Source of the DNA: Pelagibacterales bacterium SAG-MED30
Lineage (GTDB): Bacteria; Pseudomonadota; Alphaproteobacteria; Pelagibacterales; Pelagibacteraceae
Assembly: GCA_014653775.1 (NCBI GenBank)
Contig: JACWEA010000001.1
Span: 92,722-156,721 of the forward strand
Length of the DNA: 64,000 nucleotides
Direction: 5' to 3'
The notes beneath the pieces are model-generated. The model was given only the letters and a program-made list of their open reading frames with translations, did no database searches and was not told the origin of the DNA. The position numbers and the translations under genes were made by a program. Positions within the stretch are counted from its first letter, which is position 1, and every line of letters starts with the position of its first letter. Of the stretch, positions 28,953 through 56,140 are shown in pieces.

Positions 28953-29534
28953 ATGAAATTATCTGGATCATATCAAATTAATTTAGAAAAACAAAAAGTT
29001 TGGGAAGCTTTAAATGATCCAGAGATATTAAAAAAAGCTATACCAGGTTGTGAAGAATTTATAAAAAAATCAGACACTGAGTTTACTGCTAAAGCTACAA
29101 ATAAAATTGGACCTTTTAATGCAAGTTTTACAGGTGATATTGAATTAGGAGATCTTAACCCACCAGATAGTTATAAAATATCAGGTTCAGGAAATTCCCC
29201 AGTTGGATTTGCTTCAGGAGAAGCAAGTGTAAAATTAGAAGATCACGATAATGGAACTAAACTTTCTTATGAAGTGCAGGCAAACGTTGGTGGAAAAATA
29301 GCTCAAGTAGGCTCTAGATTAATTGATATGACAGCAAAAAAAATGGCTGATATATTTTTCGGTAAATTTTCAGAATTAATTTCAAAAGATGAAAATTTAT
29401 CAAGAGAACTTCCAGATATCAGTAAACTAAGTTCTGACAGTTCAATTACAAATAATAAAAAAACTAATCCAAAAATACTTATTTATTCAGCTATAGTTTT
29501 AGCAGCGGCAATAATTATTTATTCATTTTTTTAA
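28953..29534 (+). CDS. coxG: CoxG-like SRPBCC protein with C-terminal membrane anchor
   Basis: Carbon monoxide dehydrogenase subunit G family. The SRPBCC (START-like) domain covers residues 1-150 with SGSYQINLEKQKVWEALNDPE, PGCEEF and GQVGSRLID-like IAQVGSRLIDMTAKK. A polar linker leads to one C-terminal membrane helix (LIYSAIVLAAAIIIYSFF). In Afipia (Oligotropha) CoxG helps anchor the CO dehydrogenase to the membrane. It precedes coxSLM-like genes by 125 nt and shares their strand. Confidence 0.9.
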   Translation: MKLSGSYQINLEKQKVWEALNDPEILKKAIPGCEEFIKKSDTEFTAKATNKIGPFNASFTGDIELGDLNPPDSYKISGSGNSPVGFASGEASVKLEDHDNGTKLSYEVQANVGGKIAQVGSRLIDMTAKKMADIFFGKFSELISKDENLSRELPDISKLSSDSSITNNKKTNPKILIYSAIVLAAAIIIYSFF

Positions 29535-29603
29535 AAACCTTATTTTTAGATAAAAAATTATTATAAAATTCACGCAAAAGTAGAATTATAATTTAATTAA
29601 TAT

Positions 29604-29632
29604 TTGCTTCTCCATTTCACTTGTGATGTAAT
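29604..29632 (+). promoter_or_regulatory. Putative promoter of the coxSLM-like operon
   Basis: TTGCTT (29604-29609) and TGTAAT (29627-29632) are separated by 17 nt in the spacer between coxG and coxS. A strong AAGGGGGA ribosome-binding site lies just before the ATG at 29660. The rest of the 125 nt spacer is plain AT-rich sequence. Confidence 0.4.
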
Positions 29633-29659
29633 TATTTAATTAATTAAGGGGGACATGCG

Positions 29660-30121
29660 ATGACAAAAGTTACATTAGAAGTTAATGGAAAAAAAGTCAG
29701 TAAAGATGTTGCAGACCACACACTTTTATCAGTTTTTTTAAGAGATAATTTAAATTTAACAGGAACACACGTTGGTTGTGATACTAGTCAGTGTGGAGCT
29801 TGTGTAGTTCATGTAAATGGCAAATCAATAAAGAGTTGTTCAACATTAGCGGCAGACATTGATGGTTCTAAGGTTACTACAATTGAAGGCTTAGCAAAAG
29901 ATGGAAAACTTCATCCTATGCAAGAAGCATTTAAAAAGACACATGGATTACAGTGTGGATTTTGCACGCCAGGAATGGTTATGAGTGCTGTAGATCTATT
30001 ACAAACAAAAAAAAATCCTAGTGAACAAGAAATTAGAGAATGGTTAGAAGGCAATATCTGTAGATGCACAGGTTATCAAAATATAGTTGCAGCTGTAAAA
30101 GATGCTTCAACAAAAATGTAA
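29660..30121 (+). CDS. coxS: CoxS-like [2Fe-2S] subunit of a molybdenum hydroxylase
   Basis: Small iron-sulfur subunit that passes electrons from the molybdenum site to the FAD subunit. The plant-type cluster ligands are in [15 protein letters not shown] and SC; the second cluster is in [10 protein letters not shown] and [12 protein letters not shown]. The 153 aa length is normal. The S-L-M gene order is that of form II CO dehydrogenase-like enzymes. Confidence 0.94.
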
Positions 30122-30138
30122 TTTGAAAGGAGAAAAAA

Positions 30139-32517
30139 ATGGCAAGTCTAGTTGGATCAAGGGTCGAAAGAAAAGAAGATGGAAGATTTTTACAAGGAAA
30201 AGGGAGATATACAGCAGATATTAATATTGCAAATCAAACATATGCTATTTTTGTAAGATCTCCTCATGCGAGAGCAAAAATTAAAAGTGTAGATACTTCT
30301 AAAGCATTAAAATCATCAGGAGTAGTTGGAGTATTAACTGGTAAAGAAATTGCAGAAGATAAAATTGGAGGTCTGATCGCTGGATGGGCAATTAGAAGTG
30401 AAGATGGCTCTGAAATGAAAGTTCCAGCAAACCCCCCATTAGCAAAAGATGTTGCTAACTTTGTGGGTGAACCTATAGCAGTTGTTTTTGCAGAAACTTT
30501 AGATGAAGCTAAAGAAGGTGCAGAAAAAGTAAAAGTTGATTATAAAGTTTTAAAAGCTGTAGTAGATCCAGCTGATGCAATGAAAAGCGAAGCCATCCAT
30601 GATGGTGTAGATAAAAATCTTTGTTATGATTGGTTACTAGGAGATAGAAAAGCTGTAGATGAAGCTTTTGCAAAAGCTGACAAAATTATCAAAGTAGATT
30701 TAATAAATAATAGATTAGTTCCTAATGCGATGGAACCAAGAGCATGTGTGGTTGACTATAATACTGCTTCAGAAGAAATTACTTTGTATACTACAAGTCA
30801 AAATCCTCATTTATCTAGATTAGTTATGTCGGCGTTTGGTGGTGTTGCACCAGAAAATAAATTGAGAGTAGTAGCTCCTGATGTAGGGGGTGGATTTGGA
30901 TCTAAAATTAATGTTTACAATGAAGAGATTGTTTGTAGTTGGGCATCAAAAAAAATAGAAAGACCAATAAAATGGGTTGCTGAAAGAACAGAATCTTTCT
31001 TAACGGATACTCATGGAAGAGATCATGTTACTCACGCAGAGTTAGCTGTAACTAAAGAAGGTAAGTTTTTAGGATTTAAAAATGAAACTATTGCTAACTT
31101 AGGTGCTTATGCAAGAGTATTTGGAACAGTAACTCCGACATATTTATTTGGACCATGTGCTACAGGTGTTTATGTAATTCCTGCAGCTTATTCAAATGTT
31201 AAAGCTGTTTATACAAATACTGCTCCAGTTGACGCGTATAGAGGTGCTGGAAGACCAGAAGCAACTTATACAATTGAAAGATTAGTTGAAAAAGCTGCTA
31301 TGGAATTAGGTATTGATAAAACTGAAATTAGGATGAGAAATTTTCCAACAGAATTTCCATTTAAACAAACATTAGTTCATACAGTAGACTCCGGTGATTA
31401 TGTTGCTGGTTTAGAAAAAGCTAAACAAATGGCAGATTATGCAGGATTTGAAGCTAGAAGAAAAAAATCTGAAGCCAACGGTAAACTGAGAGGAATTGGA
31501 GTTTCATCTTATTTTGAGGCTTGTGGAATTGCACCTTCAGCTGCAGTTATGTCATTAGGTTGTGGAGTAGGGCTATGGGAGTCAGCAGAAGTAAGATTTA
31601 ATCCTACCGGACAAATATCTGTTTTTACAGGTGCACACAGTCATGGACAAAGCCACCAAACAACATTTGCACAAATAGCAGCAGATGAATTAGGTGTACC
31701 TATGGAAAACATTGATGTTGTTCATGGTGATACTGATAAAGGAACATTTGGAATGGGTACCTATGGTTCAAGATCATTAACCGTTGGAGGTATTGCAATT
31801 GTTAATGCTTGTAAAAAAATTGTAGCTAAAGGTAAAAGAGTTGCAGCTAAAATGCTTGAAGTTAATGAAGATGAAATTGAATTTAAGGATGGAGAGTTTG
31901 TAGCTTTAAAATCTAATAAGAAAAAAACTATTGGAGAAATAGCTTTTGCTTGTTATTTACCAGGTCAAAGAGATGAAATGAAATCTCCAATACCTGAAGG
32001 AGATGAGCCAGGTTTAATAGAGTCTTCTTTCTTTGATCCTGCAAACTTCTCATTTCCAGCAGGTTCACATATTTGTGAGGTAGAAATTGATCCTGAAACT
32101 GGAAATGTAAAAGTTGAAAAATACACAGCAGTTGATGATTTTGGAAGAATAGTAAATCCAATGATCGTTGAAGGACAAGTTCATGGAGGAATTGCTCAAG
32201 GAATAGGTCAGGCTTTGCATGAAAATACTCAATATGATGAAACAGGACAACTAATGACCGCTTCATATATGGATTATACAATGCCAAGAGCAGATAATTT
32301 TCCAGAGTTTAATTTAGGTTTCACATGCACTCATGCAACATCTAATCCACTTGGAGTTAAAGGTTGTGGAGAAGCAGGTGCAATCGCTTCACCACCAACA
32401 GTTATGAATGCAGTAATTGATGCATTAGGTGGTCAAGAAATTTCAATGCCTGCAACAGCTGAGAAAGTCTGGAAAGCTTGCAAGACATTAAAAAAATCTA
32501 ACGCTAAAGCAGCATAG
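30139..32517 (+). CDS. coxL: CoxL-like molybdopterin subunit, form II
   Basis: Large catalytic subunit of a xanthine oxidase/CO dehydrogenase family molybdoenzyme. GGGFGSK near residue 254 and the catalytic glutamate in KGCGEAGAI near the C-terminus bind and serve the Mo site. The active-site loop reads AYRGAGR, the form II sequence; true CO dehydrogenases (form I) have AYXCSFR with the Mo-Cu cysteine. CO oxidation is therefore doubtful, and an unknown aldehyde, purine or aromatic substrate is more likely. The 792 aa length is normal. Strong AAAGGAG ribosome-binding site. Confidence 0.93.
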   Translation: MASLVGSRVERKEDGRFLQGKGRYTADINIANQTYAIFVRSPHARAKIKSVDTSKALKSSGVVGVLTGKEIAEDKIGGLIAGWAIRSEDGSEMKVPANPPLAKDVANFVGEPIAVVFAETLDEAKEGAEKVKVDYKVLKAVVDPADAMKSEAIHDGVDKNLCYDWLLGDRKAVDEAFAKADKIIKVDLINNRLVPNAMEPRACVVDYNTASEEITLYTTSQNPHLSRLVMSAFGGVAPENKLRVVAPDVGGGFGSKINVYNEEIVCSWASKKIERPIKWVAERTESFLTDTHGRDHVTHAELAVTKEGKFLGFKNETIANLGAYARVFGTVTPTYLFGPCATGVYVIPAAYSNVKAVYTNTAPVDAYRGAGRPEATYTIERLVEKAAMELGIDKTEIRMRNFPTEFPFKQTLVHTVDSGDYVAGLEKAKQMADYAGFEARRKKSEANGKLRGIGVSSYFEACGIAPSAAVMSLGCGVGLWESAEVRFNPTGQISVFTGAHSHGQSHQTTFAQIAADELGVPMENIDVVHGDTDKGTFGMGTYGSRSLTVGGIAIVNACKKIVAKGKRVAAKMLEVNEDEIEFKDGEFVALKSNKKKTIGEIAFACYLPGQRDEMKSPIPEGDEPGLIESSFFDPANFSFPAGSHICEVEIDPETGNVKVEKYTAVDDFGRIVNPMIVEGQVHGGIAQGIGQALHENTQYDETGQLMTASYMDYTMPRADNFPEFNLGFTCTHATSNPLGVKGCGEAGAIASPPTVMNAVIDALGGQEISMPATAEKVWKACKTLKKSNAKAA

Positions 32518-32526
32518 GAGTTACTT

Positions 32527-33312
32527 ATGAAAACATTTAATTATCACACACCAAAAGATGTTAAAGAAGCTTCAAAGTTAGCATCAACTAGTTCTGCCTT
32601 TTTAGCAGGAGGCATGACAACTATCCCTTCAATAAAATTGGGATTAGCAACTTACAAAGATATAATTGATATTAAAAGTATTAAAAAATTGTCTGGTATT
32701 AAAGTAAGTGGTAAATCTGTAACAATTGGTGCTACAACTAAACATGCAGAAGTTGCAGCCTCAAAAGAAGTTCAAAAAACAATTCCAGCTCTTGCAAAAT
32801 TAGCAGGGAACATTGGAGATGCACAAGTTAGAAACAGAGGCACAATTGGTGGATCAATTTCTAATAATGATCCTTCAGCTTGTTATCCTTCGGCGTGTAT
32901 GGCACTTAACGCAGTGATTCATACCAATAGTAGAAAAATTCCAGCTGAAAAGTTTTTTACAGGCATGTTTGAAACTGCTTTAAAAAAAGGGGAACTTGTT
33001 GAGGCAGTAGAGTTTCAGGTTCCTGAAAAAGCTGATTATCAAAAACACCCAAATCCAGCATCAAGATATGCTATTATTGGAGTTTTTGTTGCTAAACATA
33101 AAAAAGAAGTAAACGTAGCGGTTACAGGCGCAAAATCTTGTGTTTATATTGATAAGGATTTATCAAAAAAATTATCATCAAGTTTTTCTTCATCAGTAAT
33201 TGAGGGTATGAAAGTAGATGATTCTGAAATGAATTCAGATATGCATGCATCTTCTGAATATAGAGCCAATCTAGTTTCTTTATATGCAAAAAAAGCTGTT
33301 GAAGCTTGTTAA
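32527..33312 (+). CDS. coxM: CoxM-like FAD subunit of a molybdenum hydroxylase
   Basis: Medium subunit that binds FAD and passes electrons to the acceptor. The FAD-binding segments FLAGGMTTIPSIK near residue 27 and RNRGTIGGSISNNDPSA near residue 105 match the family. At 261 aa it is slightly short, but the C-terminal CO_deh_flav_C part is present. It follows coxL by 9 nt and precedes the XdhC-type genes. Confidence 0.92.
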   Translation: MKTFNYHTPKDVKEASKLASTSSAFLAGGMTTIPSIKLGLATYKDIIDIKSIKKLSGIKVSGKSVTIGATTKHAEVAASKEVQKTIPALAKLAGNIGDAQVRNRGTIGGSISNNDPSACYPSACMALNAVIHTNSRKIPAEKFFTGMFETALKKGELVEAVEFQVPEKADYQKHPNPASRYAIIGVFVAKHKKEVNVAVTGAKSCVYIDKDLSKKLSSSFSSSVIEGMKVDDSEMNSDMHASSEYRANLVSLYAKKAVEAC

Positions 33313-33331
33313 TTAGATATTATTTTTTCAA

Positions 33332-33661
33332 ATGAAAAATTCATTTGATGAAAAAATTTTAGAAGAAGCTCATGACTGGGTTAAAGTTAATCAAAAAGTT
33401 GTTTTAGCTACAGTTATTCAAACATGGGGCTCTTCCCCAAGACCAACTGGAAGTAGAATGATAGTAAATGAGAAGGGTGATTTCTCTGGATCAGTTTCAG
33501 GGGGGTGTGTTGAATCTGCGGTCGTTAGAGAAAGCATGGGTTTACTTAAGGATAACAAACCTCATAAAAAAATAGAATTTAAAGTTTCTAATGAAAGTGC
33601 CTGGGAAGTAGGCCTTGCTTGTGGTGGTGAAATTACAGTTTATTTAGAACAAATAAACTAA
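33332..33661 (+). CDS. XdhC/CoxI-family protein, N-terminal domain only
   Basis: The XdhC_CoxI domain, found in chaperones that load sulfurated molybdenum cofactor into xanthine dehydrogenase-type enzymes. TWGSSPRPTGSRM, SGSVSGGCVES and GLACGGEITVYLE are the family signature. At 109 aa it lacks the C-terminal Rossmann domain, which is encoded by the next gene. It overlaps that gene by 1 nt. Confidence 0.9.
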   Translation: MKNSFDEKILEEAHDWVKVNQKVVLATVIQTWGSSPRPTGSRMIVNEKGDFSGSVSGGCVESAVVRESMGLLKDNKPHKKIEFKVSNESAWEVGLACGGEITVYLEQIN

Positions 33662-34341
33662 TGAAATTAGAAACGTTAAAATCAATTATTAGTAAAAAAA
33701 AAAATAAAACTGAATTTGCAATAATTACAAATCTATCAACAGGCGAAAGCGAAATTTTTGAAAAAGAAAAACCTTTAAGCAAAGAATTAGAAAAATATTC
33801 TAATCAGATTAATGAATTTTTTAAATCTAAAAAGAATGGAGTAATTGATGGGACAGAAATATTTATAGAAACTTATATAAAACCAATTAAAGTAATTATA
33901 GTTGGGGCAGTTCATATAGCTCAATATTTGGTAGAATTTGCAAAAAGTTTGAATTTTGAAATTTCTATAATTGATCCAAGGGGTTACTTTGCATCTGAGC
34001 AAAGATTTCCTGAAATGAAGATAATTAATAAGTGGCCAGATGAAGCCTTCAAGCAGATTGAAACAAATGAAAATACAGCTTTAATAGCTTTAACTCATGA
34101 TCCTAAGATAGATGATCCGGCATTACAACATGCTTTAAATAAAAAATTTTATTACGTTGGTGCACTTGGAAGTAAAAAAACTCATGCTAACAGATGTGAA
34201 AGATTAAAAGAAGCAGGTTTTAGCTCAAATAAAATTAATTCTATTCATGGACCAATTGGTATAAAATTGGGTGGAAGATCTGCACCTGAAATAGCATTAT
34301 CTATTATTGCTCAGCTAGTTGCAGAAACATATAAAAAATGA
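33661..34341 (+). CDS. XdhC-family protein, Rossmann domain
   Basis: Companion of the preceding XdhC_CoxI protein. Residues 75-220 are the XdhC Rossmann domain: VIIVGAVHIAQYL, IIDPRGYFASEQRFP, LTHDPKIDDPAL, YYVGALGSKKTHANR and GIKLGGRSAPEIALSI. The N-terminal 70 residues are lysine-rich and divergent. Together the two proteins equal one XdhC and probably mature the CoxL-like enzyme. The start overlaps the gene upstream by 1 nt and the stop overlaps the next by 4 nt. Confidence 0.9.
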   Translation: MKLETLKSIISKKKNKTEFAIITNLSTGESEIFEKEKPLSKELEKYSNQINEFFKSKKNGVIDGTEIFIETYIKPIKVIIVGAVHIAQYLVEFAKSLNFEISIIDPRGYFASEQRFPEMKIINKWPDEAFKQIETNENTALIALTHDPKIDDPALQHALNKKFYYVGALGSKKTHANRCERLKEAGFSSNKINSIHGPIGIKLGGRSAPEIALSIIAQLVAETYKK

Positions 34342-41789: not shown

Positions 41790-42113
41790 TTATTTTCCAA
41801 CTGGTCTATAAGATGCAGCAGCTTTAGAAGCAATTTCAGCAGCTTTATTAAAGTCTACAGACTCCATAATAGTCATATCTTTAATAGTTCCTGTAGCTTC
41901 CATTAGCATTTTCATTCCTGCAGCAGTTTCAAAATTTGACCCTTCTACGATAGCTATAAAATCATAAGCTCCTCTTAAAGTCATCATTTCAATTAATTTT
42001 GCTCCTGCAGCTTCAGTTATTTTTTTTGCAGCCTCTTGTCGGTTATCAGATGGATTTTTTACAAATCCAGCTAAACCTTGTTCAGTATATCTCCCTAGTA
42101 CTACAAATTTCAT
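41790..42113 (-). CDS. GYD-domain protein
   Basis: Small protein of the GYD family, a dimeric alpha/beta-barrel (ferredoxin-like) fold. It starts MKFVVLGRYTEQGL, has the name-giving region as RGAYDFIAIVE near residue 48, and ends with an alanine-rich helix. The 107 aa length is normal. A strong AAAGGAG ribosome-binding site and a 15-mer promoter motif lie upstream. The family function is unknown. Similar small-barrel proteins are encoded at 52-53 kb. Confidence 0.87.
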   Translation of the reverse strand: MKFVVLGRYTEQGLAGFVKNPSDNRQEAAKKITEAAGAKLIEMMTLRGAYDFIAIVEGSNFETAAGMKMLMEATGTIKDMTIMESVDFNKAAEIASKAAASYRPVGK

Positions 42114-49675: not shown

Positions 49676-50482
49676 GTGCCAATATTAAAAACTAGTGATT
49701 ACAAAGCTTATTCTAAATTTATAGAAAATTTAGCAAAAAAACTGACTAAATTTTATTTTTTAAAACTTAATAAACCCTTTAAAACTTCTAATAAATTTAA
49801 GGGAAAAGGATATGATCCAGTAACAACTGCTGATAGAGCATTTGAAAAATTTATTAGAAAAGAAATTAAAAAAAAATATCCCAACCACCAAGTAATAGGT
49901 GAAGAATTTGGTCACAAAAAATCTAAAAGTGATTATTCATGGGTGATTGATCCAATAGATGGAACAAGATCATTTGTTATAGGCAATCCTACCTGGAGTA
50001 ATTTAGTGTCTTTGAATTATAAGGGTAATCCTGTTGTAGGACTTGCAAATTTTCCAATACTTAAAAAATTTTATTTCAATATTTCTGATAAGATTGCATT
50101 TGTTTCTCAAAACGGAAGAAAAAAAAGATTAAAAGTAAATCTTAAAGCCACATTCTCTAAAATGAAAATGTCAGCAGGATTCCATGGTGGCTTAACATTA
50201 AATAAACAAAAAAAAATTCCACAAATATTAAAGCGAATGCAATTTCCTTGTGCAGATGCTTTAAGCTATTCTCATTTTACTGAAGGTAAACTTGATGTTG
50301 TTATACAATATGGAAATAAAATTTGGGATATTCATGCTTTGATTCCAATAATTAGAGCTGCAGGAGGTTTAGTTACAACTTGGGAAAATGATGATGCTAA
50401 AAAGGCTGGAAATATAATTTGTTCAGCAAACAAAAGTCTTCATAATAAAATGCTTAAAATTTTAAAACCTGTTTCTAAGTAG
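49676..50482 (+). CDS. hisN: Histidinol-phosphatase of the inositol monophosphatase family
   Basis: Mg-dependent phosphatase, probably the histidinol-phosphate step of histidine synthesis. The metal sites GEEFGHKK and WVIDPIDGTRSFVIGNPTWSNLV match HisN more than inositol monophosphatase, and WDIHALIPIIRAAGG closes the site. The start is a GTG; no in-frame ATG fits the N-terminus. The 268 aa length is normal. It overlaps the convergent SMR-like gene by 8 nt. Confidence 0.85.
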   Translation: MPILKTSDYKAYSKFIENLAKKLTKFYFLKLNKPFKTSNKFKGKGYDPVTTADRAFEKFIRKEIKKKYPNHQVIGEEFGHKKSKSDYSWVIDPIDGTRSFVIGNPTWSNLVSLNYKGNPVVGLANFPILKKFYFNISDKIAFVSQNGRKKRLKVNLKATFSKMKMSAGFHGGLTLNKQKKIPQILKRMQFPCADALSYSHFTEGKLDVVIQYGNKIWDIHALIPIIRAAGGLVTTWENDDAKKAGNIICSANKSLHNKMLKILKPVSK

Positions 50483-50810
50483 TCTTACCAAGGAGGTTAA
50501 CTATTAACACTCCCGAAATAATCAAAGTTAAACCAATAATAGTATAAAGATCTGGCATTTGATTAAATTTATATATTCCAACAAGTGTTGTAGCTATTAT
50601 ACATAAACCAGCAAAAGAAGCATAAGTTATACCAACAGGAATAGTCTTCATAACAATAGATAATGTAAACATACAACCAACTATAGTTATTGCTGTCAAC
50701 AAGCTTGGTAATAACAACGTAAAACCATTTGCACCTTTAGCAAAACCATTTGCTGCAGTACCTAAAACAACTGCAAGTATAAGAACTATGTATGCAATTA
50801 TGTTACTCAC
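50475..50810 (-). CDS. SMR-family-like four-helix membrane protein lacking the key glutamate
   Basis: Resembles small multidrug resistance transporters (111 aa, four helices): GTAANGFAKGANGFT, IPVGITYASFAGLCII and LTLIISGVLIVNLLG align with EmrE. The essential proton- and substrate-binding Glu14 of EmrE (AEVIGT) is replaced by valine (AVVLGT). It is therefore unlikely to be a classical drug/proton antiporter; it may be a partner subunit, a lipid or metabolite carrier, or have lost function. Last gene of the ten-gene small-protein operon. Confidence 0.8.
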   Translation of the reverse strand: MSNIIAYIVLILAVVLGTAANGFAKGANGFTLLLPSLLTAITIVGCMFTLSIVMKTIPVGITYASFAGLCIIATTLVGIYKFNQMPDLYTIIGLTLIISGVLIVNLLGKTT

Positions 50811-50826
50811 TAATTTAAGAATATTC

Positions 50827-51048
50827 TTATTCGGTGATTTTATCCACTAATTTTTTTATTGGTGGACCAAGAACAAGTGCAGCTATTATTGCTATAGGTA
50901 AACTTACTGACCATGCCTTTAAAAACCTATTGATATATTCGTTATCCATTCCTGTGTTTATATAAGTAATTATAAGTGTCATGAGCAAACTCATGCCAAA
51001 ACCCATAATTAAAATGAATATGAAATCAAAATATTTTTTTGGAAACAT
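50827..51048 (-). CDS. DUF2798 small membrane protein
   Basis: A 73 aa protein with two membrane helices (about residues 8-30 and 43-63). The second helix ends in LVLGPPIKKLVDKI, the DUF2798 signature. It overlaps the upstream NTF2-like gene by 1 nt and is 16 nt from the SMR-like gene. The family function is unknown. Confidence 0.82.
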   Translation of the reverse strand: MFPKKYFDFIFILIMGFGMSLLMTLIITYINTGMDNEYINRFLKAWSVSLPIAIIAALVLGPPIKKLVDKITE

Positions 51049-51368
51049 TATTTAGACATTGGAGTAGCACCAGTTTCTAAGCTAGTAATCTTTCCATCTT
51101 TATATCTATAAACTGCCATTACAGCTTCCACATTTCCATCATTAAAAGTTACGATAGAATGATGTACACCAACTTCATCATTTTCATACACGATACGAGC
51201 TTTATCTTGGTTTATATCACCACTCATTGCCCATTTGATTACATCAGCTTTTCCTAATGAATTTCCAGATTTATGCATTATAAACTCAAAATCATCATGC
51301 AAAAGCTCATTCATAGCTGCTTCATCTTTCTTATCTATTGCATCAGTGTATCTTTTTAATATCGACAT
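51048..51368 (-). CDS. NTF2/SnoaL-like protein
   Basis: A 106 aa cone-shaped NTF2-like domain: the N-terminal helix KRYTDAIDKKDEAAMNELLHDD leads into a strand-rich part ending VYRYKDGKITSLE. Members are often small-molecule isomerases, cyclases or binding proteins. No catalytic set can be named. It overlaps the cupin gene by 1 nt and DUF2798 by 1 nt. Confidence 0.8.
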   Translation of the reverse strand: MSILKRYTDAIDKKDEAAMNELLHDDFEFIMHKSGNSLGKADVIKWAMSGDINQDKARIVYENDEVGVHHSIVTFNDGNVEAVMAVYRYKDGKITSLETGATPMSK

Positions 51369-51718
51369 TATTCACCCCACATTCCGTGAAACTCATAAAC
51401 AATAGCTGGTTCATTTCCCACTACCCATCCATCATGTCCAGGCTGAATAGCATATGCGTCTCCAGATTTATAAGTTATTTCGGTTCCGTCATTATGTTTT
51501 GCGCAAACAGCTCCTGAAACAATTACACCAAGATGTGTTGCTTGACAGCTATCACCCCCAACTGTTGGTTTAATATCTTTCGACCATTTCCATCCAGGTT
51601 GCAATGTAAGTTTCATTACCCTCTGGTTTCCAACTTTTACAGCTTCTATTTTTGCGTTATTAAAATTATCATTAACCTCGTCTGCTTTTTCGAAAGATTT
51701 TACTTCTACTCCTGCCAT
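51368..51718 (-). CDS. Small cupin-domain protein
   Basis: Single cupin barrel of 116 aa. LTLQPGWKWSKDIKP, QATHLGVIVSGAVCAKH, SGDAYAIQPGHDGWVVG and IVYEFHG follow the cupin pattern, with histidines that may bind a metal. A very strong AAAGGAGGGG ribosome-binding site precedes it. Its substrate is unknown. Its neighbours suggest a role in handling a small molecule. Confidence 0.82.
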   Translation of the reverse strand: MAGVEVKSFEKADEVNDNFNNAKIEAVKVGNQRVMKLTLQPGWKWSKDIKPTVGGDSCQATHLGVIVSGAVCAKHNDGTEITYKSGDAYAIQPGHDGWVVGNEPAIVYEFHGMWGE

Positions 51719-51733
51719 AACCCCTCCTTTTAT

Positions 51734-52150
51734 TTAAACGTATATTTTATCAGCTAAACCGTAACAAAGTACAGCACTTAAAATAGTTAAAAATAAAGGG
51801 GCATAGATTGCTTCATCCGAAGTTTTATCTGTATGTCCAAGTTTATTAATTTTTGTACTATAAAAACCAACTATAAAAGCTGATAAGTTTTGTAAAAATA
51901 TTAGATTAAAAAATGCCCATGTTGCCTCTAAACCATTTGGTCTGATGAATCCTACATAAATTGCCATTACAGTTGATCCAATAAATATAGATCCAAAAAA
52001 TCTTACAATCCCAGCACCTGTATCATGCATTCCATATTGATTTAAAAAAGATTGTGTTTGAAACACACATCTAAATCCATAGTAAGCAAACCCTATGAAG
52101 TGAACTAAAAATACTGCTAAGTAAATTATTCCATTAAATTTTTCTATCAT
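51734..52150 (-). CDS. Four-helix membrane protein of unknown function
   Basis: A 138 aa protein with four predicted membrane helices (about residues 6-26, 47-67, 75-97, 113-132). Segments such as HFIGFAYYGFRCVFQTQSFL and GAGIVRFFGSIFIGSTVM recall other small four-helix proteins of unknown function, but I do not recognise a named family. It sits in the middle of the small-protein operon, 15 nt before the cupin gene. Confidence 0.7.
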   Translation of the reverse strand: MIEKFNGIIYLAVFLVHFIGFAYYGFRCVFQTQSFLNQYGMHDTGAGIVRFFGSIFIGSTVMAIYVGFIRPNGLEATWAFFNLIFLQNLSAFIVGFYSTKINKLGHTDKTSDEAIYAPLFLTILSAVLCYGLADKIYV

Positions 52151-52162
52151 ATTTTGAATTCT

Positions 52163-52471
52163 TTAACTAAATATTGGTCTTATTTCATCTTCAATAGTAC
52201 CTTCTATTGCAACTTCTTTCAATTGCTCTAAAAGTTTTATATATTCTGGATCTGCAGACATTTTAGCGTCAGCATCATTATCACCTTCAAACATAGTTCC
52301 AATTAAAGTTTCTCTTATTGTTCTTGGGTCTCCACCCATTTGAAAAGAAAAATAGACATCATGGTTAGGATAATGTTTTTTTCTAACAGCAGCTAAACCT
52401 TTCCCAATTTCCATAGCTTTTCCTAGGCCATCATCTTTTACTCTCATTGTTCTTGTATAAATTACTTTCAT
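52163..52471 (-). CDS. Small alpha/beta-barrel-like protein (102 aa)
   Basis: The order strand (KVIYTRTMRVK), helix (GLGKAMEIGKGLAAVRKKHYP), strand pair (VYFSFQMGG, ETLIGTMFE) and helix (PEYIKLLEQLKEVA) fits a ferredoxin-like dimeric barrel domain. No family name is certain and no catalytic residues are evident. AAAGGA ribosome-binding site. Third of three such genes in a row. Confidence 0.68.
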   Translation of the reverse strand: MKVIYTRTMRVKDDGLGKAMEIGKGLAAVRKKHYPNHDVYFSFQMGGDPRTIRETLIGTMFEGDNDADAKMSADPEYIKLLEQLKEVAIEGTIEDEIRPIFS

Positions 52472-52486
52472 TGTTAATCCTTTTTT

Positions 52487-52777
52487 TTATTTAGCATTAA
52501 AATCTATAATATCATCTGTACACTCAACAAATTTATGAGGTTCGTAGAAATCGTTCATAGATTCTAACTGTTTATTAATTGCATCAGGATCAGTACCTTT
52601 CCACCAACAAAACATTGTTAAGTTATCACCTGGCGTGATCCAGCTCATTTGACATTTTGCGTTATCACTAGTCATTGCTTTAGTCATGTCTTCCATTGAC
52701 ATTGAACCAGTAACTTCAATCATTTTAGCTTTTGCTTCTTTTGATTTAAAAGTATGTGTTACTATATAGTTTTTCAT
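52487..52777 (-). CDS. Small alpha/beta-barrel-like protein (96 aa)
   Basis: Begins NYIVTHTFKSKEAKAKM and contains CQMSWITPGDNLTMFCWWKG, with a second helix DAINKQLESMNDF, giving the strand-helix-strand-strand-helix-strand order of the dimeric barrel fold. Three cysteines and several tryptophans line the predicted core. The closest known type is perhaps DUF4242 or ABM-like, but this is uncertain. Spaced 7 nt from the gene upstream. Confidence 0.68.
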   Translation of the reverse strand: MKNYIVTHTFKSKEAKAKMIEVTGSMSMEDMTKAMTSDNAKCQMSWITPGDNLTMFCWWKGTDPDAINKQLESMNDFYEPHKFVECTDDIIDFNAK

Positions 52778-52784
52778 ATTTATC

Positions 52785-53069
52785 CTATTTTATTTTTGTT
52801 AAATCATAGATTGAATAGCTTTCTAAAACAGCATCCATGATAGGTTTTGATACCTCAGTTCCTTCAATAAATTTATGTAATGCAGGTTCATCAGTACAAA
52901 ATATCTTAAACATTACAGTACTTTTATCTGGCGTTACCGTTCCAATAGTTTTTTCTACTACTGCAACTTTAGCTCTTTCTGCTAAACCTTCAGGCGATTG
53001 CATGAAACCCATAAATTTTTCAAACATACCTTCTTTTAATTTAGCTACTACTAACATTTCTTTTTCCAT
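52785..53069 (-). CDS. Small alpha/beta-barrel-like protein (94 aa)
   Basis: Begins EKEMLVVAKLKEGMFEKFMGFM, then a strand pair (VVEKTIGTV, STVMFKIFC) and a helix (ALHKFIEGTEVS). The topology is that of the dimeric barrel fold. A strong GAAAGGAG ribosome-binding site precedes it. It follows the exported 158 aa protein gene by 23 nt. No function can be assigned. Confidence 0.68.
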   Translation of the reverse strand: MEKEMLVVAKLKEGMFEKFMGFMQSPEGLAERAKVAVVEKTIGTVTPDKSTVMFKIFCTDEPALHKFIEGTEVSKPIMDAVLESYSIYDLTKIK

Positions 53070-53092
53070 TTTTTCTCCTTTCGTTAATTAAT

Positions 53093-53569
53093 TTAATATG
53101 TGTATTCACCACTCATTTGATTCATTGAGTGAGCAAATCCTTCTTTGCCTTTAAGATTCTGTCTGCTAGAAAAACCAGTTCCTGAAATTTTTTCATATTT
53201 TCCAGTTCCTCCAATAATTTTAAAAGTTCCAGATCCTCCTTGACCACCAGTGCCTTTACCTTTGTAATTCATAAATACTTTTTCACCATCAGCTAAATAA
53301 AAAGTGCACATACCTGTTTCATCATCAAATTTTCCACTTACCAATGTAAGTCCTCCAACACAATTCATTGTAGATTTATCAAATATACTCTCTGGGTTTT
53401 TATCTGAAAGACCTGCGTTTCCATCGTAAGTAATTGCCATGTTACCATTGCCAGCATTCATAATATTCATTTCCCAAGATCCCATTCCACTTGCATTAAA
53501 TTTCCCTGAATTAGCAAAAGCCATTGTAGAAATAATTGTAAATGTTAAAGTTATTATTATTTTTTTCAT
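53093..53569 (-). CDS. Exported beta-rich protein
   Basis: A signal peptide (MKKIIITLTFTIISTMAFA) precedes a 139-residue glycine-rich, strand-rich mature protein. The segment GSGTFKIIGGTGKYEKISGTG resembles allene oxide cyclase-like barrels (GTWxIVGGTGKF type). Two cysteines are present (NCVGG, MCTFYL). Probably periplasmic. AGGAG ribosome-binding site. Possible binding protein or carrier for a hydrophobic small molecule; this is inference from fold only. Confidence 0.72.
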   Translation of the reverse strand: MKKIIITLTFTIISTMAFANSGKFNASGMGSWEMNIMNAGNGNMAITYDGNAGLSDKNPESIFDKSTMNCVGGLTLVSGKFDDETGMCTFYLADGEKVFMNYKGKGTGGQGGSGTFKIIGGTGKYEKISGTGFSSRQNLKGKEGFAHSMNQMSGEYTY

Positions 53570-53584
53570 TTTTACTCCTTTTTA

Positions 53585-53977
53585 TTAATATAAAGTTTGA
53601 ATTACTTTTTTTACTCTTTCAGCCCCGTCAGGAACTAAAGCTTCAACGTAAGAATGACATTTATCAGTTTTAGCTTTGTCATATTTTGATCCGTAATGTT
53701 TATCTACTGCTTTATTAACTCCTTCATCCCACTCCTTTTCAGGAATACCTATTTCAAGAGCATAGGATTTTAAAACTTTTACAGTTGATATGGATTTTTC
53801 TTTCATAGCGTATTCAAATTTTTCACCAGATGGAAGAAAGTAGTTAGCCATATAAATACCAACACAGTCCCAAGCTTTGGACTTATCGTTGTCACTCATA
53901 CCAGCCAATGATGAAGTAGATATTAGAATTGCTGTACAGTAAGTAGCAAATATTTTTAAAGTTTTTTTTATTAGCAC
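53585..53977 (-). CDS. Exported protein of unknown function
   Basis: First gene of the small-protein operon. The track starts at an ATG at 54016 without a good ribosome-binding site. A GTG at 53977, 6 nt after AAAGGA, gives a cleaner signal peptide (LIKKTLKIFATYCTAILISTSSLAG) and is preferred. The mature part is helical and acidic/basic, with two cysteines (WDCVGIYM, KCHSYVEAL), likely one disulfide. I recognise no family. It is probably periplasmic and co-expressed with the exported beta protein downstream. Confidence 0.68.
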   Translation of the reverse strand: MLIKKTLKIFATYCTAILISTSSLAGMSDNDKSKAWDCVGIYMANYFLPSGEKFEYAMKEKSISTVKVLKSYALEIGIPEKEWDEGVNKAVDKHYGSKYDKAKTDKCHSYVEALVPDGAERVKKVIQTLY

Positions 53978-54086: not shown

Positions 54087-55088
54087 TTATAGCCAACTAG
54101 GGATAGGTAGCTTTTTTTCCTCTAAAAATTTTTTGTTAAACATCTTAGAGTTGTATTTATCTGACTTATCACAAAGAATAGTGACAATAGTTTTTCCTGG
54201 GCCTAATTCTTTTCCAAGTCTAATTGCTCCTGCAATATTAATTCCACAACTTGTACCTAAACTTAAACCTTCATTTTGTATTAAATCATAAAGAATAGGT
54301 AAAGCTTCATTATCATCAATTGAAAAAGCATCATCAATTTTTGCATTTTGAAAATTTTTAGTAACTCTACTTGAGCCAATCCCTTCAGTAATTGAATTTC
54401 CTTCTGATTTTAATTCACCGTTCTTTATATAATTATAAAGAGCCGAACCTTTTGGATCAGATAAATAAATTTTAATATCTTTATTTTTCTCCTTAAGAGC
54501 ATTACTAACTCCTGAAATAGTTCCTCCTGTTCCAGAAGAACAAACAAAACCATCGACTTTACCTTCAGTTTGTTCCCAAATTTCAGGACCTGTTGTTTGA
54601 TAGTGACCTTTAGCATTAGCAATATTATCAAATTGATTAGCCCAGACGACACCTTTATTATTTGTGTTTTTCAATTCTTCAGCGAGTCTTTGAGCAACTT
54701 TTACATAATTACCTTCATCTTTATAAGGTTTAGGGGCGACTAATCTTAATTCTGCTCCGATATTTCTTAAAGTGTCTTTTTTTTCTTGAGTTTGATTATC
54801 ATTCATTACAATAATAGTTTTGTATCCAAGTGAGTTTCCTAAAAGACATAATCCAATTCCTGTGTTACCTGCTGTTCCTTCAACAATTATCCCTCCTTCA
54901 GAAATCAATTTTTTTTCTTGTGCATCTTTTACAAGAGCTAAAGCAGCTCTATCTTTTACAGATCCGCCTGGATTAAGATATTCAGCTTTTCCATAAATAT
55001 TACATCCGGTAATCTCTGATGCAGCTCTTAACTTAATTAAAGGAGTATTACCAATTGAGTCGATAAAATTATTTTTAATATTTATCAT
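54087..55088 (-). CDS. cysK: Cysteine synthase
   Basis: PLP enzyme that makes cysteine from O-acetylserine and sulfide. The PLP lysine is in NPGGSVKDRAA near residue 43, EGTAGNTGIGLC is the substrate loop, and CSSGTGGTISG binds the PLP phosphate. The 333 aa length fits CysK/CysM-type enzymes. It follows cysE with a 2 nt gap. Known SAR11 lack assimilatory sulfate reduction, so sulfide would come from other reduced sulfur compounds. Confidence 0.93.
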   Translation of the reverse strand: MINIKNNFIDSIGNTPLIKLRAASEITGCNIYGKAEYLNPGGSVKDRAALALVKDAQEKKLISEGGIIVEGTAGNTGIGLCLLGNSLGYKTIIVMNDNQTQEKKDTLRNIGAELRLVAPKPYKDEGNYVKVAQRLAEELKNTNNKGVVWANQFDNIANAKGHYQTTGPEIWEQTEGKVDGFVCSSGTGGTISGVSNALKEKNKDIKIYLSDPKGSALYNYIKNGELKSEGNSITEGIGSSRVTKNFQNAKIDDAFSIDDNEALPILYDLIQNEGLSLGTSCGINIAGAIRLGKELGPGKTIVTILCDKSDKYNSKMFNKKFLEEKKLPIPSWL

Positions 55089-55090
55089 TA

Positions 55091-55657
55091 CTATTTGTCC
55101 TCGTCTGTAACCGCATAAGGCTTAAATCCTTTAGTAGCATCTCCAACTTTTTTTGCAGGAATTCCTGCCATTACAGATTTTTCAGGTACATCTTTTGTTA
55201 CAACTGAATTTGATCCTATTAATGAATTTTTACCGATTGTTATAGGACCTAATATTTGAGCTCCAGATCCTACAACAACATTATCTTCTAAAGTTGGATG
55301 TCTTTTCATATCTCTTTGTTGATTAGAATTAATACTAGGCGATACTCCACCCAAAGTAACGTTGTGATATATAGTTACATTATTTCCAATCTCAGAAGTT
55401 TCACCAATAACAACCCCCATACCGTGGTCGATGAAAAAATTTTTTCCAATTTTTGCTTTAGGGTGAATTTCTATCCCGGTTAAAAATCTTGAGAATTGAG
55501 ATATTATCCTAGCGATTAAATCAAATTTTGCTAAAGAGAAGAAATTAGCAATTTTATAAAAAAAAACAGCTTTCACACCAGGATAAGTTAAAATTAAACT
55601 TAATTTAGATTTTGCCGCAGGATCTCTGTCAATTATAGATTGCAAATAATCGTTCAT
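55091..55657 (-). CDS. cysE: Serine O-acetyltransferase
   Basis: Makes O-acetylserine for CysK. The left-handed beta-helix hexapeptide repeats run from about residue 65, with [26 protein letters not shown] and the catalytic HGMG. At 188 aa it is the short EpsC-type form without the long N-terminal domain of E. coli CysE. It is the first gene of the cysE-cysK operon. Confidence 0.93.
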
Positions 55658-55729: not shown

Positions 55730-56140
55730 ATGTATAAAAATACTAACTGTTTTCACCTGGCAATTCCTTGCGGAGACTTAGAAACAGCAAAAAAATTTTA
55801 TAGTGAGACTTTAGGCTGTCGTCTTGATAATTCTGCTCAAGAATGGGCTGATGTTGATTTTTGGGGAAATGAATTAACACTTCATGCTAGTGAACATAAA
55901 TTAGATAATGAAAGACATGATGTTGATATGGGAAATGTTTCCGTTCCTCATTTTGGTGTTCACTTATCAAGAAAAGATTTTGATACTTTAAAAAATAGAT
56001 TAAAAGAAAAAGGTGCTAAATACTATGATGAACCTTATTTAAGATTTAAAGGCACAAAGTATGAGCAAGAAACTTTCTTTGTTAAAGATCCAAACGAAAA
56101 TATATTAGAAATTAAAACATTAACAGCTAATTCAGAATAG
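55730..56140 (+). CDS. VOC-family (glyoxalase/dioxygenase-like) protein
   Basis: A 136 aa vicinal oxygen chelate fold protein. CFHLAIPCGDLETAKKFYSETLGC opens it and FFVKDPNENILEIKT closes it, with candidate metal ligands His, His and Glu (FHLAI, HFGVH, LEIK). A strong AAAGGAG ribosome-binding site precedes it. The substrate is unknown. It is separated by 15 nt from the exporter downstream. Confidence 0.87.
   Translation: MYKNTNCFHLAIPCGDLETAKKFYSETLGCRLDNSAQEWADVDFWGNELTLHASEHKLDNERHDVDMGNVSVPHFGVHLSRKDFDTLKNRLKEKGAKYYDEPYLRFKGTKYEQETFFVKDPNENILEIKTLTANSE

Follow-up and report, generated by a model that had tools for sequence, protein, structure and literature searches.

Between the genes cysK and IMPase of a Pelagibacteraceae (SAR11) genome, a stretch of 64,000 nucleotides from contig JACWEA010000001.1 of Pelagibacterales bacterium SAG-MED30 (the window) carries a run of ten small genes, which is one version of a selected, recombining and modular genomic island composed of a frequent core and optional genes. 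With a probability of roughly 0.5, this conserved SAR11 island acts on small organic compounds of a single class, a joint action of its products that is inferred from their folds, their recurrence and their order. SAR11 bacteria are the most abundant in the ocean and possess streamlined genomes, in which this block is nevertheless retained under selection and constantly re-assorted. Should the island form one biochemical module, a compound important to very many ocean cells would be indicated, and the variation between strains would offer a handle on niche partitioning among near-identical strains.

The ten genes are co-directional on the minus strand of the 67%-complete source assembly (50475-53977), and all the open reading frames listed in an initial annotation, made from the letters of the window, are present in the order given there. 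From the first gene of the island to the last, followed by the two flanks, they are:

53585-53977, minus strand: EX1, an exported protein of about 130 residues with a signal-peptide-like N-terminus
53093-53569, minus strand: EX2, an exported protein predicted by AlphaFold and Foldseek to form an 8-strand beta barrel of the dirigent/allene-oxide-cyclase type; optional
52785-53069, minus strand: B1, a predicted dimeric alpha/beta-barrel (ferredoxin-like) protein, from AlphaFold and Foldseek
52487-52777, minus strand: B2, a probable dimeric alpha/beta barrel resembling SCO4226, from a sub-threshold Pfam match
52163-52471, minus strand: B3, a small soluble protein without a Pfam match, presumed to have a barrel fold; optional
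51734-52150, minus strand: TM4, a four-helix membrane protein with four hydrophobic segments
51368-51718, minus strand: CUP, a small putative cupin with a weak Pfam match and conserved residues; optional
51048-51368, minus strand: an NTF2-like/SnoaL_2 protein (Pfam E 1.2e-8)
50827-51048, minus strand: a DUF2798 membrane protein with two helices (Pfam E 7.5e-21)
50475-50810, minus strand: an SMR-family protein that lacks the coupling glutamate in transmembrane helix 1 (TM1) (Pfam E 3.7e-14)
54087-55657, minus strand: cysK and cysE, the anchoring flank, conserved in the loci of relatives
49676-50482, plus strand: an IMPase-like gene, the convergent flank, conserved in the loci of relatives and overlapping the SMR gene at its end

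The genes are closely packed, with successive spacers of 16, -1, -1, 15, 12, 15, 7, 23 and 15 bases; EX1 opens with GTG near 53977, and the island lies 106 bases downstream of cysK on the same strand. All ten genes are functional coding sequences, since the ratio of nonsynonymous to synonymous substitution (dN/dS) against close relatives ranges from 0.014 to 0.14, demonstrating strong purifying selection. No RNA element of the region, riboswitches included, matched Rfam up to E 1, no terminator- or promoter-like sites there exceeded chance, and a search for a viral origin in IMG/VR confirmed no relatives of B1 or TM4.

The conservation of the island was assessed in two samples of complete loci, one of 24 loci fetched through a neighbouring glyoxalase-like gene and one of 83 cysK-to-IMPase loci chosen mostly for B1, optional genes being recognised by similarity to a fixed query set that may miss further families. 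Across complete loci, CysK is 83-94% identical. In the 24-locus sample, the frequent core consists of the SMR-like protein (24 loci), TM4 (23), DUF2798 (22) and the NTF2-like protein (20), joined less strictly by EX1 and B1 (16 each), while B3 (14), B2 (12), CUP (4) and EX2 (2) are optional members. These loci display 20 architectures with 5-14 recognised genes over 1.8-7.8 kb; the larger sample displays 54, mostly following one of two layouts, in the second of which TM4 adjoins cysK in the opposite orientation. Within each layout the gene order is largely kept and individual genes are gained or lost. The window version, with CUP and EX2 together, is a less common one. The block is therefore kept as a conserved and apparently undescribed gene set, as the initial annotation had supposed, in the form of a variable island and not of the fixed ten-gene system proposed there. 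The independent occurrence of the genes without shared context, which would have spoken against such a set, was not seen within the family, where the genes stay together. A description of a cysK-adjacent island was not found in the literature searched, of which the coverage was partial.

The glyoxalase-like gene used for sampling (55730-56140, plus strand) is carried by 31 of 101 genomes of the genus, many of them incomplete, and its product is 86-99% identical where present, a degree of conservation unusual for such patchy presence.

The optional genes are drawn from a limited pool, lie mostly in one direction, and include, besides those of the window, genes for DUF1330, GYD, DUF3764-like, SnoaL, second cupin and exported TPR proteins and a DsbA-fold protein, together with the EX1 duplicates EX1b and EX1c. 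The DsbA-fold protein resembles 2-hydroxychromene-2-carboxylate isomerase, an assignment made from a sequence motif.

Exchange of alleles between strains accompanies this variation in membership. In 63 distinct loci that share the window's layout, for which identity was measured to the window copy and class thresholds were chosen after the identity distributions had been viewed, B3, B2, TM4, B1 and the NTF2-like protein split into discrete identity classes. For B3, 31 loci have identities in the 90s, 20 in the 60s and 2 in the 50s, corresponding to types of about 95% or about 62%, while for CysK and IMPase the identities form one broad distribution each, and their medians hardly differ between loci of different classes. 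Because the slots hold discrete types while the flanking core genes are equally distant, recombination has switched most slots from one allele type to another. On a tree of three core genes covering 58 loci, allele types switch 3-11 times per slot. The types of TM4 agree with those of B2 in 43 of 45 loci and with those of B3 in 45 of 49, and B1, though adjoining B2, assorts differently. On the same tree, independent switches occurred in the same way in 2.9 of 3 cases for TM4 and B3, 3.5 of 5 for TM4 and B2, and 4.6 of 9 for NTF2 and DUF2798, with none in the opposite way; none of these tendencies is significant, because the independent events are too few. A bolder proposal is that TM4-B3-B2 and NTF2-DUF2798 are exchanged as co-adapted allele blocks, that strains sharing a water mass thereby differ in the variants of a common marine compound they use or tolerate, and that the glutamate-less SMR protein represents a new class of uncoupled channel or scaffold, which taken together is unlikely.

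Three assignments of the initial annotation exceed their Pfam cut-offs, namely the SMR protein (PF00893, 53.5 bits against 23.7), DUF2798 (74.4 against 23.5) and the NTF2-like protein (SnoaL_2, 35.9 against 27), and its four-helix membrane protein and two exported proteins are supported by the hydrophobic segments of TM4 and by the N-termini of EX1 and EX2, as read from sequence. The cupin assignment is weaker: the Cupin_2 match of CUP is below threshold (16.9 bits against 27.2, E 0.005), and CUP represents a distinct cupin-like family whose residues C58, H62, H95 and E109, invariant in an alignment of SAR11 and other alphaproteobacteria, suggest a conserved metal or catalytic site. EX1 likewise contains two invariant cysteines, at alignment positions 39 and 108. 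For EX1, EX2, B1, B3 and TM4 no credible Pfam match was obtained, and no described family was found for TM4. The analysis thereby names TM4, B1, B3 and EX1 as conserved families lacking a Pfam match, alongside an SMR lineage that lacks its defining glutamate.

Structure prediction, which had been recommended for each protein, was run for B1 and EX2, with Foldseek searches of both models, and gave confident results in each case. B1 is predicted to adopt a ferredoxin-like fold with a predicted local distance difference test score (pLDDT) of 85, and its Foldseek matches include PA3566, LsrG, NIPSNAP and ABM proteins with template-modelling scores of about 0.5-0.67, so that B1 is predicted to belong to the dimeric alpha/beta-barrel class. 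B1 resembles ABM, NIPSNAP and LsrG proteins in fold but has no detectable sequence relationship to solved or Pfam members. Of the three tandem barrels initially proposed, B1 is thus supported, whereas B2 (a SCO4226-like match with E 0.017, below the cut-off) is probably a barrel and B3 presumably so. Compared as profiles, B1, B2 and B3 gave no match to one another. EX2 is predicted to be an eight-strand barrel (pLDDT 88, predicted template-modelling score 0.78) that in structure most closely matches dirigent proteins, the cyclase PloI4, allene oxide cyclase and pyocyanin demethylase, which makes it a candidate small-molecule binder or cyclase. Unlike these proteins, EX2 is exported and bacterial and has no sequence match to a solved structure, and the dirigent/allene-oxide-cyclase resemblance takes the place of the periplasmic binding-type folds of the initial annotation. 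At the sequence level, no relative of B1, EX2, CUP or the NTF2-like protein was found in the PDB; weak matches there of B2 and B3 (3f6z; FICD) were judged to be chance, and profile matches among EX1, EX2 and f174 look like signal peptides.

Known members of the folds predicted for B1 and EX2 act on small organic molecules. Together with the SnoaL and cupin folds, the dimeric alpha/beta barrel and the dirigent/allene-oxide-cyclase barrel fit the binding or conversion of small molecules, which is a property of folds and not proof of function. In the proposed mechanism, the exported EX1 and EX2 would meet the compound in the periplasm; three membrane proteins (TM4, DUF2798 and the SMR-like protein) would hold it in the membrane or let it through, by a mechanism other than EmrE-type proton antiport; in the cytoplasm it would be isomerised, cyclised or oxidised by the soluble proteins of barrel, SnoaL and cupin type; and variation in the optional genes would tune the compound variants handled by each strain. 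The idea of small-molecule capture and conversion is retained from the initial annotation together with the conserved gene set, while the possibly volatile or reactive nature it suggested for the molecule found no direct support.

The same families also group together at other sites and in other taxa. In other SAR11 genera, GYD, f53, TM4, B2, B1, DUF1330 and EX1 are grouped in two loci (L039 and L045), and TM4, cup3, B1, CUP, NTF2, DUF2798 and SMR in a third (L070). B1 also occurs in one unrelated alphaproteobacterial genus of another family (two genomes), where a compact cluster of B1, CUP, NTF2 and in part B3 lies among unrelated genes (L085 and L086). Locus L224 (genome G232) contains six small proteins, namely two DUF6854 proteins, CUP, a SnoaL-like protein assigned by eye without a Pfam match, a cupin, GYD and a relative of B2 (SCO4226-like match with E 0.0011), and locus L221 (G304) contains CUP, an ABM-like protein and other small proteins, one of which weakly matches GYD. 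TM4 is present in 121 of 197 genomes of the family and in 10 of 385 of the class, three of them within the window's genus. B1 and B3 are very rare across the class, B3 matching only the window's own genome and G226 among 289 class genomes; 432 relatives of B1 were found in GTDB genomes, of which the best 80 are nearly all Pelagibacteraceae or Pelagibacterales records. Two distant arrangements were also observed. In a distant alphaproteobacterium, two TM4 relatives stand in tandem (L089:7617-8474), suggesting that TM4 may be a pair, and in an unrelated alphaproteobacterium an exported protein whose C-terminal motif resembles that of EX2 directly precedes a SnoaL gene (L090:2987-3855), which echoes the EX2/SnoaL partnership of the island.

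Several observations weigh against a single small-molecule module. The cupin stands alone in large-genome relatives, so at least one island family can work by itself. No recognisable pathway enzyme is common to every locus, no close homologue with a known function was found, and a single pathway would not usually have most of its soluble genes as optional members. Which roles are cytoplasmic and which periplasmic is, moreover, inferred from signal peptides and folds only.

The main rival explanation is that the site, lying between two core genes, is a hot spot of recombination which collects small, independently useful genes without a common function. The 20 architectures in 24 loci and the allele exchange at most slots are what such a flexible island would display; SAR11 bacteria are highly recombinogenic (PMC7542561), and genomic islands dominated by hypothetical proteins have been described (PMC7318151). 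The locus also shares with replacement flexible genomic islands (PMC4033161) and with the hypervariable regions HVR1-4 of Pelagibacter (PMC2217521) a fixed place between conserved flanks, a gene content and alleles that differ between close strains, and exchange by recombination; in occupying the same locus with differing content in close relatives, it agrees with the definition of a replacement island. However, its content is narrow, comprising small barrel, cupin, SnoaL and membrane proteins, its layouts largely keep their order while slots vary singly, and in the available part of the HVR1-4 description the cysK site was not found to lie in any named hypervariable region. A small set of fold classes and families recurs in mostly constant order and regroups at other sites and in an unrelated genus, whereas a random collection should hold unrelated genes more often. 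An assemblage lacking a common function is regarded as a possible explanation, though a less probable one than action on a common class of compound.

The position beside cysK raises the further alternative that the island serves cysteine or sulfur metabolism as an accessory arm and is transcribed together with cysE-cysK. The island adjoins cysK in complete loci and in the window follows it closely on the same strand, but TM4 beside cysK points the other way in the second layout, most related clusters of other genera, the unrelated one included, lie away from cysK, and cysK and cysE are reported not to respond to sulfur limitation (PMC5069961). A role in cysteine metabolism is improbable, because the linkage is one of position and other genera have mostly lost it.

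The TM1 glutamate is essential for proton-coupled export in the SMR family. A drug- or biocide-efflux and detoxification operon built on an SMR transporter is the least probable alternative, since, although the island protein resembles EmrE in length, four predicted helices and Pfam and NCBIfam profile matches and is often present as two paralogues per locus, the glutamate at EmrE position 14 is missing from all 138 island SMR-like copies. The window copy has no acidic residue at all in TM1, which agrees with the altered SMR protein of the initial annotation.

The high expression initially suggested finds mixed evidence. The median ribosome-binding duplex energy of the ten genes is -5.7 against -0.8 for 65 other genes of the window (one-sided p 0.019, with the EX1 start placed one codon too far upstream), so the sites are stronger as a group, but DUF2798, SMR and TM4 have none. 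Codon adaptation did not separate the island from ordinary genes and is uninformative, as ribosomal genes are not distinct in the genus; the ribosomal reference was taken from G113, the ribosomal operon being outside the assembly of the window's genome.

Elsewhere in the window, about 8 kb from the island, a gene for a GYD-like protein, a family optional in the island, stands alone (41790-42113, minus strand) and adjoins a sulfite-dehydrogenase-like/cytochrome c pair and an aldehyde dehydrogenase. A cluster resembling molybdenum-containing dehydrogenases of the CO-dehydrogenase/xanthine-dehydrogenase type, with maturation genes, occupies 28953-34341 on the plus strand, and molybdenum-cofactor genes lie further on.

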